Part shown: in pieces, positions 34,933-42,162 of the stretch | Layout: each line of letters begins with the position of its first letter | Numbering within the stretch: position 1 is the stretch's first letter | Source of the DNA: Deltaproteobacteria bacterium | GTDB taxonomy: Bacteria; Desulfobacterota; Desulfuromonadia; Geobacterales; Geobacteraceae | Length of the DNA: 64,000 nucleotides | Assembly: GCA_021848385.1 (NCBI GenBank) | Contig: JAJZUQ010000006.1 | Location: forward strand, 1 to 64,000 | Direction: 5' to 3' | Program-made: the position numbers and the translations under genes | Notes under the pieces: model-generated | Told to the model about the DNA's origin: nothing | Seen by the model: only the letters and a program-made list of their open reading frames with translations | Database searches by the model: none

Positions 34933-36063
34933 ATGGACTACGGGGATGGCAAGGGGAAAAGCAGGAATTCAGAACAGTGTTTTGACGTGCCGCGTTCACT
35001 GGCAGAAAGAGGTATTACCCGCCGGGACTTCATGAAGTTCTGTACCGCCATGTCGGCGGCCCTGGCGCTCCCGATGTCGCTGGTGCCGAGAATAGCCGCA
35101 GCGCTGGAGAATGACGGCCGGCCGTCTGTTATCTGGCTGGAGTTCCAGAGCTGCACCGGGGATACGGAAGCCCTGCTGCGGGCTGCAAATCCCACTATCG
35201 GGGAGATCGTCCTCGATGTCCTTTCCATCGACTATGCTGAAACGATCATGGCGGCCGCCGGCCATCAGGCAGAGGACGCCAGGATGAAGACCGTAAAAGA
35301 AGCCAGGGGGAAATACATCGCCATCGTTGAAGGGGCCGTTCCGATGAAGGACGGTGGCATCTACTGCTGCATTGGTGGCAGGTCGGCCCTCGACATTGTA
35401 CGGGAGGTCTGCAGCGGTGCTCTGGCCACCATAACGGTCGGCACCTGCGCGTCCTATGGGGGACTCCCTGCCGCGGCCCCCAATCCGACCGGAGCAGTCG
35501 GTGTCAAGGAAGCGGTGCCGGGTGCCACAGTGGTCAATCTCCCCGGCTGCCCCGTAAATACCGACAACCTGGTGGCCACCGTTGTCCATTTCCTCACCTT
35601 CGGCAAGCTCCCTGCCGTCGATGGTAAAGGGCGTCCCCTGTTTGCTTACGGCAAACGGATCCACGACAACTGCGAGCGCCGGCCCCATTTCGATGCGGGC
35701 CAGTACGTGGAGGTGTGGGGGAGTGAAGCCCACCGAAACGGTCACTGCCTCTACAAGATGGGGTGCAAGGGGCCGGAGACCTTCCATAACTGCCCGGTCC
35801 AGCGTTACAACGAGAAGACCAACTGGCCGGTTGGATCAGGACACGGCTGTGCGGGGTGTTCGGAGCCCCAGTTCTGGGATACCATGACCCCCTTCTACCG
35901 AAGGCTCCCCAACGTGCCGGGGTTTGGCATCGAGACGACCGCCGACAAGATTGGTGCCGGCCTGGCGGTTGCCACTGCTGCAGCCTTTGCCGCCCACGGG
36001 GTGGTCAGCGGGTTGCGGCATAAAGATGACGAATCCAAGGACGGAAAGGGGGGTAACCAATGA
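34933..36063 (+). CDS. hyaS: NiFe hydrogenase small subunit, Tat-exported
   Basis: This 376-residue subunit carries the iron-sulfur clusters that lead electrons from the NiFe site. Residues 29-60 are a twin-arginine signal (TRRDFMKFC, then a hydrophobic stretch), so the enzyme faces the periplasm. Cluster cysteines occur in LEFQSCTGDTEALLRA, GTCASYGG, LPGCPVNTDNL, HCLYKMGCKGPETFHNC and HGCAGCSEPQFWD. A C-terminal hydrophobic segment (GAGLAVATAAAFAAHGVVSG) anchors it in the membrane. Its last 4 bases overlap the large-subunit gene. Gene order matches the Hya operon of Geobacter. TatA at 18 kb could serve its export. Confidence 0.93.
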   Translation: MDYGDGKGKSRNSEQCFDVPRSLAERGITRRDFMKFCTAMSAALALPMSLVPRIAAALENDGRPSVIWLEFQSCTGDTEALLRAANPTIGEIVLDVLSIDYAETIMAAAGHQAEDARMKTVKEARGKYIAIVEGAVPMKDGGIYCCIGGRSALDIVREVCSGALATITVGTCASYGGLPAAAPNPTGAVGVKEAVPGATVVNLPGCPVNTDNLVATVVHFLTFGKLPAVDGKGRPLFAYGKRIHDNCERRPHFDAGQYVEVWGSEAHRNGHCLYKMGCKGPETFHNCPVQRYNEKTNWPVGSGHGCAGCSEPQFWDTMTPFYRRLPNVPGFGIETTADKIGAGLAVATAAAFAAHGVVSGLRHKDDESKDGKGGNQ

Positions 36064-37760
36064 CCAAAATAGTCGTAGACCCGATCACGAGGATAGAGGG
36101 GCACCTCCGCATCCAGGCCGAGGTGAACGGAGGGACCATTACTGATGCCTGGAGTTCCAGTACCATGTTCCGGGGGATCGAGTCCATACTCAAGGGGAGA
36201 GACCCGCGTGACGCCTGGTACTTTACCCAGCGTATATGCGGTGTCTGTACGACGGTCCATTCCATTGCCTCCATCAGAGCGGTTGAGAATGCACTGAACA
36301 TTACGGTTCCCCTGAACGCCGAGCTGATCCGTAACCTCATCATCGGCACGCAGCTGGTGCAGGACCATGTGATCCATTTCTATCACCTTCATGCCCTCGA
36401 CTGGGTAGACGTTGTTTCGGCATTGAAGGCCGACCCGGCCAAGAGTGCAGCCCTTGCCGCGTCCCTCTCCGACTGGCCCCTAAATTCCCCCACCTACTTC
36501 AAATCCGTTCAGGACAAGGTTGCTGCCTTCGTGAAGAAGGGGCGACTTGGCCCCTTTGGCAACGCCTACTGGGGGCACCCGGCCTATAAACTGCCTCCGG
36601 AAGCCAACCTGATGGCTACGGCCCACTACCTGGAGGCGCTGGACTGGCAGCGTGAGGTTATAAAAATTCATGCCATCCTTGGCAGCAAGAACCCCCATCC
36701 CCAGACCTTCCTGGTGGGAGGTATGGCAATTCCCATCGACCCCAATTCCCAGAACGCCCTCAATGCCGACAAAATAGCCGAAATTGGGGAACTGCTCGGG
36801 AAAGTGAAGCGGTTCGTGGAAAAGGTCTATATCCCCGACCTGTTGGCAGTAGCTTCATTCTACAAGGATTGGGCCGGCATCGGCGCCGGCGTCGGTAACT
36901 ACCTGAGCTACGGCGAATACCCGCTGGACAACAGCGGCAAACCTGAAAAGCTCTGGTTTCCCCAGGGGATCATTCTCAACCGTGACCTCACCAAGGTCCA
37001 TCCCATTGATCAGAAGAAGATCACCGAAAGTGTGGCCCACTCCTGGTACGAGGGGGGGAGTGCCGGCGTGCATCCCTATGACGGGCAGACCGAACCGAAA
37101 TACACGGGGCCAAAGCCTCCCTACGACATGATCGACACGAACGGAAAATACTCTTGGGTAAAATCACCCCGGTATGACGGGAAGCCCATGGAAGTAGGCC
37201 CCCTCGCCGTTATTCTCGTCGCCTACGCCTCGGGGCATGCCGGTGCAAAGGGGGCGGTCGACATGGTGCTCAAAAAACTCGGTGTCGGCCCTGAGGCGCT
37301 CTTCTCTACCCTTGGGCGCACGGCTGCCCGGGGGATAGAGTCCCTCCTGGTTGCAGAAGAACTCCCCAAGTGGCTCGACATGCTCGTGGCCAATATCAAG
37401 GGGGGAGACCTGGCAAGCCACAATGGCGAGAAGTGGGACCCGGCCAGCTGGCCGCATGAGGCAGCCGGCTTCGGCTGGCATAATGCGCCGCGTGGTGCGC
37501 TGGGGCACTGGGTGAGGATCAGGGACCAGAAAATTGAGAATTACCAGGCGGTGGTTCCCACTACCTGGAACGCCTCTCCCCGGGACGAGAAGGGGGAACG
37601 GGGGCCTTACGAGGCTGCGTTGGTCGGTACTCCCCTGGCCGACCCGGACAAGCCGCTGGAAATACTCAGGACTATCCATTCATTCGACCCGTGTCTCGCC
37701 TGTGCCGTCCACGTGGTCGATCCAGAGGGGAACGCAATGGTGGATGTCAAGGTCCTCTGA
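36060..37760 (+). CDS. hyaL: NiFe hydrogenase large subunit
   Basis: This 566-residue subunit holds the NiFe(CN)2CO site. The N-terminal ligand motif is RICGVCTTVHS (C60, C63); the C-terminal one is DPCLACAVH (C545, C548). The maturation protease cuts after H551, removing 15 residues (VVDPEGN...). It travels with the small subunit through the Tat pore as a folded pair. The 4-base overlap with hyaS suggests equal translation. Group 1 membrane-bound uptake type fits the partner cytochrome b and the Tat signal. Confidence 0.95.
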   Translation: MTKIVVDPITRIEGHLRIQAEVNGGTITDAWSSSTMFRGIESILKGRDPRDAWYFTQRICGVCTTVHSIASIRAVENALNITVPLNAELIRNLIIGTQLVQDHVIHFYHLHALDWVDVVSALKADPAKSAALAASLSDWPLNSPTYFKSVQDKVAAFVKKGRLGPFGNAYWGHPAYKLPPEANLMATAHYLEALDWQREVIKIHAILGSKNPHPQTFLVGGMAIPIDPNSQNALNADKIAEIGELLGKVKRFVEKVYIPDLLAVASFYKDWAGIGAGVGNYLSYGEYPLDNSGKPEKLWFPQGIILNRDLTKVHPIDQKKITESVAHSWYEGGSAGVHPYDGQTEPKYTGPKPPYDMIDTNGKYSWVKSPRYDGKPMEVGPLAVILVAYASGHAGAKGAVDMVLKKLGVGPEALFSTLGRTAARGIESLLVAEELPKWLDMLVANIKGGDLASHNGEKWDPASWPHEAAGFGWHNAPRGALGHWVRIRDQKIENYQAVVPTTWNASPRDEKGERGPYEAALVGTPLADPDKPLEILRTIHSFDPCLACAVHVVDPEGNAMVDVKVL

Positions 37761-37771
37761 GGGGGTGTGCC

Positions 37772-38440
37772 ATGAAACAGAGCCAGGAATGCCTGCATGA
37801 AGCGTATGTCTGGGAGGTGCCCGTCAGGGTCACCCACTGGGTGAATGTGCTCTCCATAGCCATTCTGTCCGTGACCGGCATCTATATCGGTTCACCGGTA
37901 ACGTTGGCGCTGACCCCCTCCGGGTATGACATGGGGTGGATCAGGTTTATCCATTTCACGGCTGGCTTTCTCTTTGCCATCAGCGTCGTGAGTCGAATCT
38001 ACTGGTCGTTCGTCAGTAACCGGTATGCCGGTTGGCGCGAGTTTGTCCCCTTCTTGTCCGCCGAAGGGCGCCGCAACATGTGGCGGATGTTTGCCTACTA
38101 TACCTTCATGAGCAGGAAGATCCCCCATCCGATCGGTCACAATGCCCTGGCGGGAGCGACCTACCTGCTGGTGTTTCTCCTCTATCTGGTCATGATTCTC
38201 ACCGGCTTCACGCTCTATTCGGAGCATGCGCCCCATGGCCCACTGCACGCGCTGCTGGGGTGGATGTTCGCCCACTTTTCAAATCAGGGAATACGGCAGA
38301 CCCACCATCTGACGATGTGGCTTCTCATTGGCTTCGCCATCCACCACATCTACAGCGCCTGGCTGATGGACGTGAAGGAGCGGGGCGGGGTTATATCAAG
38401 TATTTTCGGCGGCTACAAACCGGTGCAGGGAAGGGAGTAA
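37772..38440 (+). CDS. hyaB: Ni/Fe-hydrogenase b-type cytochrome subunit
   Basis: This 222-residue membrane protein binds two b haems and passes electrons from the hydrogenase to quinone. Four hydrophobic helices are visible (about 20-42, 60-82, 125-147 and 175-197). Candidate haem histidines are in RVTHWVNVLS, FIHFTAGFLF and HHLTMWLLIGFAIHHIYSAW. The ATG at 37772 is right for the family (EVPVRVTHW at about 15-23) and lies 11 bases past the large-subunit stop. Group 1 uptake hydrogenases use such a subunit. Confidence 0.92.
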   Translation: MKQSQECLHEAYVWEVPVRVTHWVNVLSIAILSVTGIYIGSPVTLALTPSGYDMGWIRFIHFTAGFLFAISVVSRIYWSFVSNRYAGWREFVPFLSAEGRRNMWRMFAYYTFMSRKIPHPIGHNALAGATYLLVFLLYLVMILTGFTLYSEHAPHGPLHALLGWMFAHFSNQGIRQTHHLTMWLLIGFAIHHIYSAWLMDVKERGGVISSIFGGYKPVQGRE

Positions 38441-38443
38441 GGG

Positions 38444-38926
38444 GTGTCTGTTCTCGTGCTCGGCATAGGGAACCTGATCATGGCCGATGACGGTATCGGC
38501 GTCAAGATCGTCCAGCGGCTTCAGCGTGACTACAGGTTCCCTCCCGAGGTTACGATCCTGGATGGCGGGACTCTGGGGTTGGACCTCCTGCCGTTCCTGG
38601 AGGGGGTGGAGCGGCTCCTCATGGTGGATGCGGTCGAAACCGGCTGGGAACCGGGGACGGTGGTGCGGCTTGAGGGAGAAGAACTCCCCGTTGCCCTCAA
38701 GACCAAGCTCTCCCCCCACCAGGTGGGACTGCAGGATCTCCTGGCCGTGGCGGAACTGCAGGGCTTTTCCCCGAAAGACATGGTGCTCTGGGGGGTGCAG
38801 CCGGCGATTCTGGATATGGGGATGGACCTTTCCTCGCCGGTGGCGGCCCAGATGGATACCCTTGTCGACCGGGTGCTTGCCGAGCTTGCCGGGTGGGGGG
38901 CAGGTGGACAGCCGATTGCCGGTTAG
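38444..38926 (+). CDS. hyaP: Hydrogenase maturation protease
   Basis: This 160-residue HybD/HyaD-type endopeptidase trims the large-subunit C-terminus after nickel insertion. The start VLVLGIGNLIMADDGIGVKIVQRL has the nickel-sensing glutamate position replaced by aspartate (usual is N-x-L-x-x-D-E-G). ILDGGTLGLDLLPFL carries the second conserved aspartate, and LSPHQVGLQDLL the conserved histidine. It starts with GTG at 38444, 3 bases after the cytochrome stop. A terminator follows, so the operon is four genes; other maturation genes (hypA-F) are elsewhere. Confidence 0.92.
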   Translation: MSVLVLGIGNLIMADDGIGVKIVQRLQRDYRFPPEVTILDGGTLGLDLLPFLEGVERLLMVDAVETGWEPGTVVRLEGEELPVALKTKLSPHQVGLQDLLAVAELQGFSPKDMVLWGVQPAILDMGMDLSSPVAAQMDTLVDRVLAELAGWGAGGQPIAG

Positions 38927-39312: not shown

Positions 39313-40545
39313 GTGCACCACCGCCTGCTGAAAAATTCAACATCGTTTGCCCTGCCGCTCATCCTGCTGGTTGCTGCATCCCTCGTGCTTCCCCGCATCT
39401 CCGCATTACCTCCATCGTGGCAGATGAACCTGGTTTCCGCTCCCTACTTTATCTTTGTCACCCTTCTTCTCTTGAGTTTCCACTTCAACCGCGGCCGGAT
39501 CTTCTGCGTCTCCCTTCTGCTCGGTGTTGCCTACTGGAGCTGTCGCACCTACCTTCTCCAGGGGCTGGTCGACTTCCGTGCCGGCATGATCTACCAGGGG
39601 TTGTCGGTACTTCTTCCGGTCAACATCACCCTCTTCTGTTTTCTCCGGGAGCGGGGGGTCCTCACGAATGCCGGACGGCTGCGCCTTGCTTTCCTTGCCG
39701 GCCAGGCGGCCTTGGTGGCCTGGTTCGTCCGTTACAATTACGTTGAGGTCCAGCAGTTTATCGGCAGGGAACTGGTCACCAGTGCTGTTCTCGATCGGTT
39801 CCTTCTCCCCCAGGTGGCGATCTTCCTCTTTATTGCCGGCGGGCTCCTCATCGCCGGGAAACTGCTCGTCAACCCATCCCCCCTGTTAAGTGGCATGTTT
39901 GGTGCCCTTCTCGCCGTGGGCGCATCATGCAACTGGCTCACCACGGAGTATCTCGTGCCGCTGTTCATGGGAACGGCAGGACTGCTCCTCATCATCAGTG
40001 TCGTCCAGGACTCCCACAACATGGCGTACCGGGACGACCTCACCGGCCTTCAGTCACGCCGTGCCCTCAATGAACAGCTGATGGGGCTGGGACGGCAGTA
40101 CGCCATCGCCATGCTCGACGTCGACCATTTCAAGAAATTCAATGACACCTACGGCCACGACGTGGGGGATCAGGTCCTCCGGATGGTGGCGAGCAGGATG
40201 CAGGGGGTCAAGGGGGGTGGTCGGGCGTTCCGGTACGGTGGTGAGGAGTTCACCATTCTCTTTCCCCACAAGGGTGTGGCAGATGCAACTCCCCACCTGG
40301 AGGAGGTCCGCAGGAGTATTGCCGACTACCAGATGAAAATCCGCAGCACCGAGCGCCCCAGCGACGGTCAGGAGGGGAAGAAACAGCGCGGCGCCGGCAA
40401 TGGCGACCAGACCGTCTCGGTTACCATCAGCATCGGCGTGGCCGACTGCTGCGACGGCTCCGCCACCCCCGAAGAAGTCATAAAGGCAGCCGATCAGGCC
40501 CTCTACCGGGCCAAGCACAAAGGACGCAACCAGGTCTGCGCGTAA
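39313..40545 (+). CDS. Membrane-bound diguanylate cyclase (GGDEF)
   Basis: This 410-residue protein makes cyclic di-GMP. About six N-terminal hydrophobic helices span residues 12-230. The GGDEF domain starts at YRDDLTGLQSRRAL; MLDVDHFKKFNDTYGH is the metal and substrate block, and the signature is RYGGEEF (309-313). The position of the inhibitory RxxD site is VKGG here, so product inhibition at that site is unlikely. An inserted, poorly conserved stretch (about 340-362) follows. The GTG start at 39313 is the first that includes the first helix. The signal sensed by the membrane part is unknown. Confidence 0.87.
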   Translation: MHHRLLKNSTSFALPLILLVAASLVLPRISALPPSWQMNLVSAPYFIFVTLLLLSFHFNRGRIFCVSLLLGVAYWSCRTYLLQGLVDFRAGMIYQGLSVLLPVNITLFCFLRERGVLTNAGRLRLAFLAGQAALVAWFVRYNYVEVQQFIGRELVTSAVLDRFLLPQVAIFLFIAGGLLIAGKLLVNPSPLLSGMFGALLAVGASCNWLTTEYLVPLFMGTAGLLLIISVVQDSHNMAYRDDLTGLQSRRALNEQLMGLGRQYAIAMLDVDHFKKFNDTYGHDVGDQVLRMVASRMQGVKGGGRAFRYGGEEFTILFPHKGVADATPHLEEVRRSIADYQMKIRSTERPSDGQEGKKQRGAGNGDQTVSVTISIGVADCCDGSATPEEVIKAADQALYRAKHKGRNQVCA

Positions 40546-40771: not shown

Positions 40772-40813
40772 TTGACCCACGTCATGCTCTTTTCCCCTCC
40801 TCCGCGTTATGCT
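40772..40813 (+). promoter_or_regulatory. FNR/CRP-superfamily type operator and -10 box (class II layout)
   Basis: The palindrome TTGAC-CCAC-GTCAT (40772-40785) has one mismatch in its second half-site. A -10 box, TATGCT, is at 40808-40813, giving a start site near 40820. The palindrome centre is then at -41.5, the usual class II activator position. There is no good -35 box, as expected for an activated promoter. TTGAC/GTCAA half-sites fit Hcp/nitrosative-stress regulators (HcpR-like) best; the exact regulator is inferred. Confidence 0.55.
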
Positions 40814-40838
40814 GACATCATCAAAGGAGGAGGAAACC

Positions 40839-41066
40839 ATGGAATTCAATCAGAATCTTGGCAATCAGGCGATCCAGGATGTCATCGCTACCCACCCCCC
40901 GATCGGCGACATTCTCAACCGCTACGACATCGGCTGCGTCACCTGCAAGGTGGGAATATGTCTCCTCAAGGACGTGGTCTCCATCCACGGCCTTTCAAAA
41001 GATGATGAGGCGAAAATAGAAGCGGAAATCAACTGCTATCTGGCAGACAACGGAAAAGGAGAATAG
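40839..41066 (+). CDS. DUF1858/ScdA-N-like small cysteine protein
   Basis: This 75-residue protein has the pattern HPPIGDILNRYDIGCVTCKVGICLLKDVVSIHGLSKDDEAKIEAEIN. That is the layout of the DUF1858 and DUF542 (ScdA N-terminal) domains, with C33, C36 and C41. DUF542 occurs at the N-terminus of RIC/YtfE/ScdA proteins that repair iron centres after nitric oxide; DUF1858 occurs with hybrid cluster proteins. AAAGGAGGAGG precedes the ATG at 40839. It heads a tight three-gene operon (gaps of 2 bases) that ends with a hemerythrin, the other half of a RIC protein. It probably acts in redox or NO protection, by inference. Confidence 0.75.
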   Translation: MEFNQNLGNQAIQDVIATHPPIGDILNRYDIGCVTCKVGICLLKDVVSIHGLSKDDEAKIEAEINCYLADNGKGE

Positions 41067-41068
41067 CA

Positions 41069-41527
41069 ATGAGTCATCCTGGTTGCGGCTGCCCCGGCAG
41101 CATGGCGCGTGTCATCGAAAGAAACGAAACGAACGGTAACGAAACGGCGGCACAGGCGCCGTCAGAACTGCGGCAGTGGCCGGTCCAACTCCATCTGGTC
41201 CCCACCACGGCACCCTACTTCCAGGAGGCCGACATCCTGGTCGCGGCCGACTGCGTGGCGTTCGCCCTGGGAAGTTTCCACCGTGACCTGCTCAAGGGCA
41301 AGGCGCTTGCCATTGCCTGCCCGAAGCTGGACGAAACCGGCACCTACGTTGAGAAGCTGGCCACTATCTTCCGTGAGAGCCGGGTAAAGAGAGTTACCGT
41401 TGCGATCATGGAGGTCCCCTGTTGCAGGGGTCTCGATGTCATGGTGAAACAGGCGGTTGCCCGGTCGGGGCGGGACATACCTCTGGAGACACTGATAATA
41501 GGCATTGATGGCGAGAGGAGGAACTGA
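41069..41527 (+). CDS. Iron-sulfur protein family member lacking the ferredoxin domain
   Basis: This 152-residue protein opens GCGCPGSMARV, then LRQWPVQLHLVPTTAPYFQEADILVAADCVAFALGSFHRDLLKGKALAIACPKLD, and MEVPCCRGL. These blocks match the C-terminal part of a common anaerobe protein that normally begins with two 4Fe-4S ferredoxin motifs; here that part is absent. Six cysteines remain (C6, C8, C62, C84, C118, C119). The gene is complete, with a start 2 bases after the previous stop. The biochemical role of the family is not established as far as I know. It is sandwiched between the two RIC-like genes. Confidence 0.72.
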   Translation: MSHPGCGCPGSMARVIERNETNGNETAAQAPSELRQWPVQLHLVPTTAPYFQEADILVAADCVAFALGSFHRDLLKGKALAIACPKLDETGTYVEKLATIFRESRVKRVTVAIMEVPCCRGLDVMVKQAVARSGRDIPLETLIIGIDGERRN

Positions 41528-41529
41528 AA

Positions 41530-42102
41530 ATGGCTGCGAAACGGGACATCACGACTGCACTGGTCGATGAGCACAGGCTGATACTGAGGATGCTGACAGT
41601 TCTGGAACGGAACGCCATCCTGACGAGGGAGGGGGCGCACCCCGACTACCGGTTCTACCTCGTTGCGGTGGACTTCATCAGGAACTTCGCGGACCGCTTC
41701 CACCACGCCAAAGAGGAGAATGTGTTGTTCGAGGCGCTGGTGGCAAACGGCATGCCGCGGCAGAACAGCCCGGTTGCGGCGATGCTGCTGGAGCACGATC
41801 AGGGACGGGCTTTCGTTAGTGCCATGGAAGAAGCGGCCCAGGCTGCATTGCGGGGGGAGCCGGGACAGGACGGGGTAATTGCCGCAAACGCCGTCGGTTA
41901 TCTGGAGCTGCTTCGGGAGCATATCTCCAAGGAAAACGAGATTCTCTATCCGCTGGCGGAACGGCTCATATCCGACACCATGCGGGATACCATTATAGCA
42001 GCCTATGGCGCGGCTGAAGCCAGGACGCCCGAAGGTTTCGCGGCGCGGTATGAGGAACTGGTGTTTCGTTGCGAGGGGGACGTGATCAATCAGGCTGCGT
42101 AG
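41530..42102 (+). CDS. Hemerythrin HHE domain protein
   Basis: This 190-residue four-helix protein has the di-iron ligands of the HHE family: H15 (VDEHRLIL), H58/H59 and E62/E63 (FHHAKEENVLF), H89 (LLEHDQGR), H131 and E135 (LLREHISKENEILYPLAE). Such domains bind O2 or NO-related species or supply iron, as in YtfE/RIC. It starts 2 bases past the preceding stop and ends at a strong hairpin. A short C-terminal extension (about 150-190) is unlike standard hemerythrins. It is likely cytoplasmic. Confidence 0.88.
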   Translation: MAAKRDITTALVDEHRLILRMLTVLERNAILTREGAHPDYRFYLVAVDFIRNFADRFHHAKEENVLFEALVANGMPRQNSPVAAMLLEHDQGRAFVSAMEEAAQAALRGEPGQDGVIAANAVGYLELLREHISKENEILYPLAERLISDTMRDTIIAAYGAAEARTPEGFAARYEELVFRCEGDVINQAA

Positions 42103-42128: not shown

Positions 42129-42162
42129 GGAAAGGGGAGGTCGATTGACCTCCCCTTTCTGC
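42129..42162. terminator. Bidirectional terminator
   Basis: Perfect 12-bp stem AAAGGGGAGGTC (42131-42142) / GACCTCCCCTTT (42147-42158) with a 4-base loop, between the convergent hemerythrin and lipoprotein genes. Confidence 0.85.

Follow-up and report, generated by a model that had tools for sequence, protein, structure and literature searches.

A conserved three-gene operon with a RIC-like hemerythrin and a predicted HcpR-type promoter, probably for nitrosative stress, in Geobacter-type anaerobes

Comparison of gene content and upstream regions across related genomes suggests that three small genes in the window, the stretch of 64 kb of DNA analysed here, are likely to form an HcpR-activated nitrosative-stress operon of Geobacter-type anaerobes. 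The host (G000) is a Geobacterales genome of 3.26 Mb with an assembly that is 94% complete. The genes occupy positions 40839-42102 of the + strand, encode products of 75, 152 and 190 amino acids and are separated by gaps of 2 bases each (gene 1/2 and gene 2/3), so that the coordinates and gaps of the original prediction were correct. The features of the locus are the following:

40772 to 40785, + strand: HcpR-type activator palindrome TTGACCCACGTCAT, centred at 40778.5, upstream of gene 1
40808 to 40813, + strand: -10 element TATGCT, its first base 29.5 bases from the palindrome centre
40820, + strand: predicted transcription start, an A after C, 41.5 bases from the palindrome centre
40839 to 41066, + strand: gene 1, 75-aa DUF1858/TIGR03980-like cysteine protein
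41069 to 41527, + strand: gene 2, 152-aa stand-alone FrdX C-terminal domain without ferredoxin clusters
41530 to 42102, + strand: gene 3, 190-aa hemerythrin-fold protein with RIC-type di-iron ligands
42129 to 42160, + strand: probable terminator hairpin 3' of gene 3 (RNA fold -27.2 kcal/mol, z -5.12)

The start codon of gene 1 was placed at the ATG at 40839, which is preceded by AAAGGAGGAGG, because the ATG of a longer reading frame at 40809 would overlap the -10 element. The hairpin behind gene 3 has 14 bp and was not listed by a simple terminator scan owing to its short T run. The upstream neighbour is a GGDEF protein gene ending at 40545. Promoter and hairpin make the three genes a predicted self-contained transcription unit, and the gene order, whose conservation in other genomes had been suggested as a check, is conserved among the relatives. 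Cultured carriers of the operon include Geobacter sp. AOG1 and Geomobilimonas luticola JCM 17780 (L003/L004). Elsewhere in the window, an apparently complete [NiFe] hydrogenase operon is predicted at 34933-38926, with genes for the small and large subunits, a cytochrome b and a maturation protease.

Conservation of the promoter

In the window, TTGACCCACGTCAT agrees with the TTGACnnnnGTCAA-type HcpR palindrome at nine of ten positions. Taken alone, the palindrome is as frequent as chance would have it, both in the 64-kb window (one match with one mismatch allowed, 1.69 expected) and genome-wide (85 sites per strand, where the reversed control had 105). Single-sequence statistics being at chance level, a comparison across relatives was needed, and these were collected from genome contigs and from 141 whole genomes belonging to the host's order.

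The pattern TTGA[CT]N4[AG]TCA[AT] occurs in all 66 distinct upstream regions of the relatives and in 0.08% of shuffled regions. It mostly lies 60-72 bases 5' of the start codon, and its degeneracy is confined to positions 5, 10 and 14. TAnnnT follows at a constant distance, its first base 29.5 bases from the centre, with frequencies of 0.98 for the first T, 0.97 for the A and 0.98 for the last T, and the start is marked by C-1 (0.82) and A+1 (0.89), although the species behind these 66 regions are related and hence not independent. The same geometry, shifted by one base at most, is found in other families of the class. In two genomes (L011/G012 and L014/G011) gene 1 has been displaced, and gene 1 and genes 2-3 each carry their own copy of the promoter. 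The proposal of a class II site, with the palindrome at -41.5 from the start deduced from TATGCT, is borne out by this fixed geometry, which supports the palindrome and -10 element as a predicted class II activator site. That the genes are a cluster of unrelated function behind a fortuitous palindrome is hardly credible: the chance-level counts for the palindrome alone, in window and genome, would suit such a reading, but the invariant site and spacing in the 66 regions and at the split loci refute it.

The HcpR regulon and its candidate regulator

An FNR-like HcpR palindrome, wyTTGACnnnnGTCAArw, was predicted in Geobacter and Desulfuromonas by Rodionov and colleagues, whose predicted delta-proteobacterial regulon includes hcp, frdX, nrfHA and others, with mention of hemerythrin-like genes (PMC1274295, PMC545781). 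We scanned the host genome with a composite promoter pattern (site, 21-23 bases, TAnnnT), which occurred seven times, against once for the reversed control. The matches with the following positions precede genes of interest:

C33:12278: before hcp (PF03063; TIGR01703)
C13:45530: before ygbA-frdX (PF11756, NF007714)
C72: before the three-gene operon
C87: before the gene of a 235-aa protein, adjoining a NorC-like cytochrome gene
C97: before a PAS protein gene

The matches at C15 and C32 are probably due to chance, since no NO-related gene lies downstream of them. The ygbA-frdX operon recurs across the order with the same kind of site. Two relatives (L131, L152) have the operon, RIC and hcp clustered within 10-12 kb, and in another (L195) hcp is just upstream of the operon.

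The promoter type common to hcp, ygbA-frdX and the operon, all in one genome, fits the published HcpR (NO-response) motif. Of the NO- or oxygen-responsive system originally envisaged, the tie to nitrosative stress and HcpR was retained and the oxygen part was not. A literature search found no study of the three-gene operon; HcpR control of hemerythrin-like and frdX genes had already been predicted, so that the operon was largely anticipated, whereas the available part of the published description contains neither the set of three genes and its fused forms nor the exact class II spacing.

Two further families under this promoter type were observed in the host. The C87 protein belongs to a family of about 235-250 aa (G000:C87, L048:3337-4041) with a signal-peptide-like start, the motif CHCFTDRSYDPxHP and no Pfam match, whose gene stands just upstream of gene 1 in L131, L140, L152 and L153. 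The other is a small stand-alone PAS protein (G000:C97:76448; L050 4533-4985), whose gene adjoins RIC in relatives (L152 12168-12614) and which is possibly an NO or redox sensor of the same regulon.

A search of the host at E<=1e-8 gave a single CRP/FNR homologue, encoded at C13:38510-39220, and its orthologue is present in each of the 103 good genomes of the order. Its recognition helix carries the residues S-E (SETLSR), which PMC1274295 reports for TTGAC-type HcpR. It has a single cysteine and thus no FNR-type Fe-S site. Against curated families the best match was FtrB, at 108 bits, under the cut-off of 211. A second weak CRP-like match, at C4:34539, was rejected as it lies in a GntR regulator; in an assembly that is 94% complete a second regulator could be missing. 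We infer that the C13 protein is the best candidate for the HcpR-type regulator of the operon. For many Geomonas-like genomes (g6) the alignment of its orthologue runs through one stop codon, probably by extending beyond a natural gene end that lies slightly earlier.

An oxygen-response operon, with an FNR-type regulator at the site and a protein 3 that binds or senses O2 like a bacteriohemerythrin, is an unlikely alternative. In many relatives the site is a hybrid, TTGAC...ATCAA or TTGAT...GTCAT, that stands midway between the HcpR palindrome and the FNR box TTGATNNNNATCAA, and O2 carriers have the hemerythrin fold too; yet the host's one detected CRP/FNR homologue contains a single cysteine, the co-regulated genes are hcp and ygbA-frdX, and protein 3 keeps the RIC ligand set of four His and two Glu, described below.

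The three proteins

Gene 1 was found in 94 of the 141 genomes of the order, and its motif C33-x2-C36-x4-C41 (CxxCxxxxC) is invariant in 66 sequences. It matches TIGR03980, the hybrid-cluster-protein-associated redox disulfide domain, over residues 12-39 (E 8.8e-5; 22.5 bits, below the cut-off of 44.95) and DUF1858 weakly (E 0.11; 13 bits, below 32.2), and it lies near hcp in several genomes. It differs from both families in scoring below the curated cut-offs and in its extra invariant third cysteine. The protein lacks the RIC motif DfCCgG and stays under every family cut-off. Aligned with the N-terminal domain of RIC by hhalign, its profile reached a probability of 2%, which exceeded all 20 column shuffles and was not significant. 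Of the suggestion that gene 1 is DUF1858/ScdA-N-like, the first half thus has a weak DUF1858/TIGR03980 match behind it, and for homology to ScdA_N a comparison of sequence profiles is not by itself proof.

Gene 2 had been taken for a new middle component of unknown role, which it is not. It has one paralogue in the host, a 244-aa protein at C13 that combines two 4Fe-4S motifs with a C-terminal domain; gene 2 is 55-56% identical to the latter and has the same cysteines. Its own cysteines C6, C8, C62, C84, C118 and C119 are invariant or conserved at 0.98, it carries the motifs CxCPG or CPG, AADC, CPKLD and EVPCC of the FrdX C-terminal Cys-domain, and gene 2 or the FrdX paralogue is present in 132 of the 141 genomes. 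The C13 paralogue has a ferredoxin domain and its gene lies behind an HcpR-type site, which is how FrdX was defined in 2004/2005, and we name it FrdX on the strength of this definition. Gene 2 shares the C-terminal domain but not the N-terminal 2[4Fe-4S] ferredoxin domain of FrdX, and at the level of sequence it is a putative FrdX minus its ferredoxin domain.

No Pfam or NCBIfam model covers the gene 2 domain, and a sequence search against solved structures gave no match. The AlphaFold model shows a small alpha/beta core (pTM 0.68) for which fold searches found no clear relative by Foldseek (E no better than 4e-3) and uninformative VIA matches to unrelated alpha/beta proteins (Z at most 7.3). 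Knock-down of frdX, an HcpR target in C. difficile, sensitises that bacterium to NO (PMC12915319). In L206 three elements stand in a row, namely an frdX gene, an interrupted gene 1-3 coding stretch with the look of a fusion, and gene 2, so that the full and the short FrdX both flank the di-iron unit.

Gene 3 encodes a hemerythrin fold, as had been recognised (Pfam PF01814, E 1.7e-19), and its nearest solved relative by sequence is YtfE (E 0.013). The ligands H15, H58, E62, H89, H131 and E135 are all conserved at 1.00 in 65 sequences and correspond to the di-iron ligands H84, H129, E133, H160, H204 and E208 of YtfE (PMC9268430), H58 to E135 being matched by alignment and H15 by its position in the first helix. 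The bacteriohemerythrin (O2 carrier) set consists of five His, an Asp and a Glu, and the gene 3 residues match the RIC set instead, as compared by ligand list only. Against the RIC family TIGR03652, however, the protein scores 20.3 bits, with a cut-off of 204.7. The di-iron site of gene 3 is thus predicted to be RIC-like, yet the protein is not a RIC by family score.

Relation to RIC and proposed role

Genes 1 and 3 are fused in four loci (L019, a Lentisphaerae MAG, and L207-L209, three genomes from a different family of the phylum), where they encode a single chain of 263-290 aa and gene 2 comes next. The fused proteins keep GCVxC...C, and an HcpR-type palindrome precedes three of the four loci. 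Genes 1 and 3 also occur without gene 2 in two more genomes and in two relatives from the class. Fusions and loci without gene 2 together indicate that genes 1 and 3 are the core pair. In a model of the gene 1-3 fusion the N-terminal part folds into four helices, and the Cys motif sits between helices two and three, as in domain A of YtfE (PMC9268430). The best fold matches of the di-iron part are PF0695 (3cax, Z 16.2) and NMB1532 (2p0n, Z 15.8), and YtfE is not among them.

RIC exceeds its cut-off in 67 of the 141 genomes. It occurs together with the operon in 57, the operon occurs alone in 37, RIC alone in 10 and neither in 37; this corresponds to an odds ratio of 5.7 towards co-occurrence, a value inflated by shared ancestry. 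In L150, RIC lies 45 bases behind gene 3 on the same strand. The idea of the operon as a replacement for RIC was rejected on this co-occurrence, and the operon is predicted to work beside RIC and not in its place.

These results also bear on a true split RIC, in which gene 1 would be ScdA_N and gene 3 the di-iron domain, doing the job of RIC where RIC is absent. RIC is missing from the host, in its 94% complete assembly, and from two of its three congeners, and the fusions, with helices and Cys motif placed as in YtfE domain A, speak for such a reading; we nevertheless regard it as quite improbable, given the 57 genomes that have both, the odds ratio, the L150 locus, the CxxCxxxxC motif of gene 1 where RIC has DfCCgG and the 20 bits of protein 3 against a cut-off of 205. 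What survives of the original notion of a split RIC is that genes 1 and 3 together resemble RIC/YtfE/ScdA (TIGR03652): they share its six di-iron ligands, its Cys-rich helical and hemerythrin domains, fused in some lineages, and its nitrosative-stress setting. The natural fusions in two lineages support, by domain content, a RIC-like module split in two. In the literal sense the notion fails, since RIC is a single chain with a DfCCgG ScdA_N domain while the operon has two chains and CxxCxxxxC and coexists with RIC.

For the nitrosative-stress operon, we propose that NO or other reactive nitrogen species (e.g. from nitrite) would be the signal, and that an HcpR-type regulator of the CRP/FNR family would bind TTGACCCACGTCAT and activate the class II start at about 40820. 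Proteins 1 and 3 would most likely act as one working unit, like the two domains of RIC. The di-iron site of protein 3 may bind NO and/or give iron to damaged Fe-S proteins, with protein 1 controlling access, electrons or iron transfer. Protein 2 would most likely take the part that the C-terminal domain has in FrdX, a redox or cluster task, and the ferredoxin half of the FrdX encoded elsewhere may feed it. More tentatively, and as something we hold to be possible but somewhat doubtful, proteins 1 and 3 (in one or two chains) and protein 2 could constitute a distinct ancient module of anaerobes, a three-part complex for NO handling or Fe-S repair that works beside Hcp and RIC with electrons from FrdX.

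One predicted NO-response switch would link three poorly understood families, namely DUF1858/TIGR03980, the FrdX C-terminal domain and a RIC-like hemerythrin. The fused, split and displaced versions of the operon that have kept the promoter are natural experiments. With FrdX protecting C. difficile from NO, the stand-alone core domain beside a di-iron protein makes its function directly testable. Geobacteraceae are described as notable nitrate-ammonifying N2O producers (PMC11633192), and NO handling matters in such N2O-producing members of the family.
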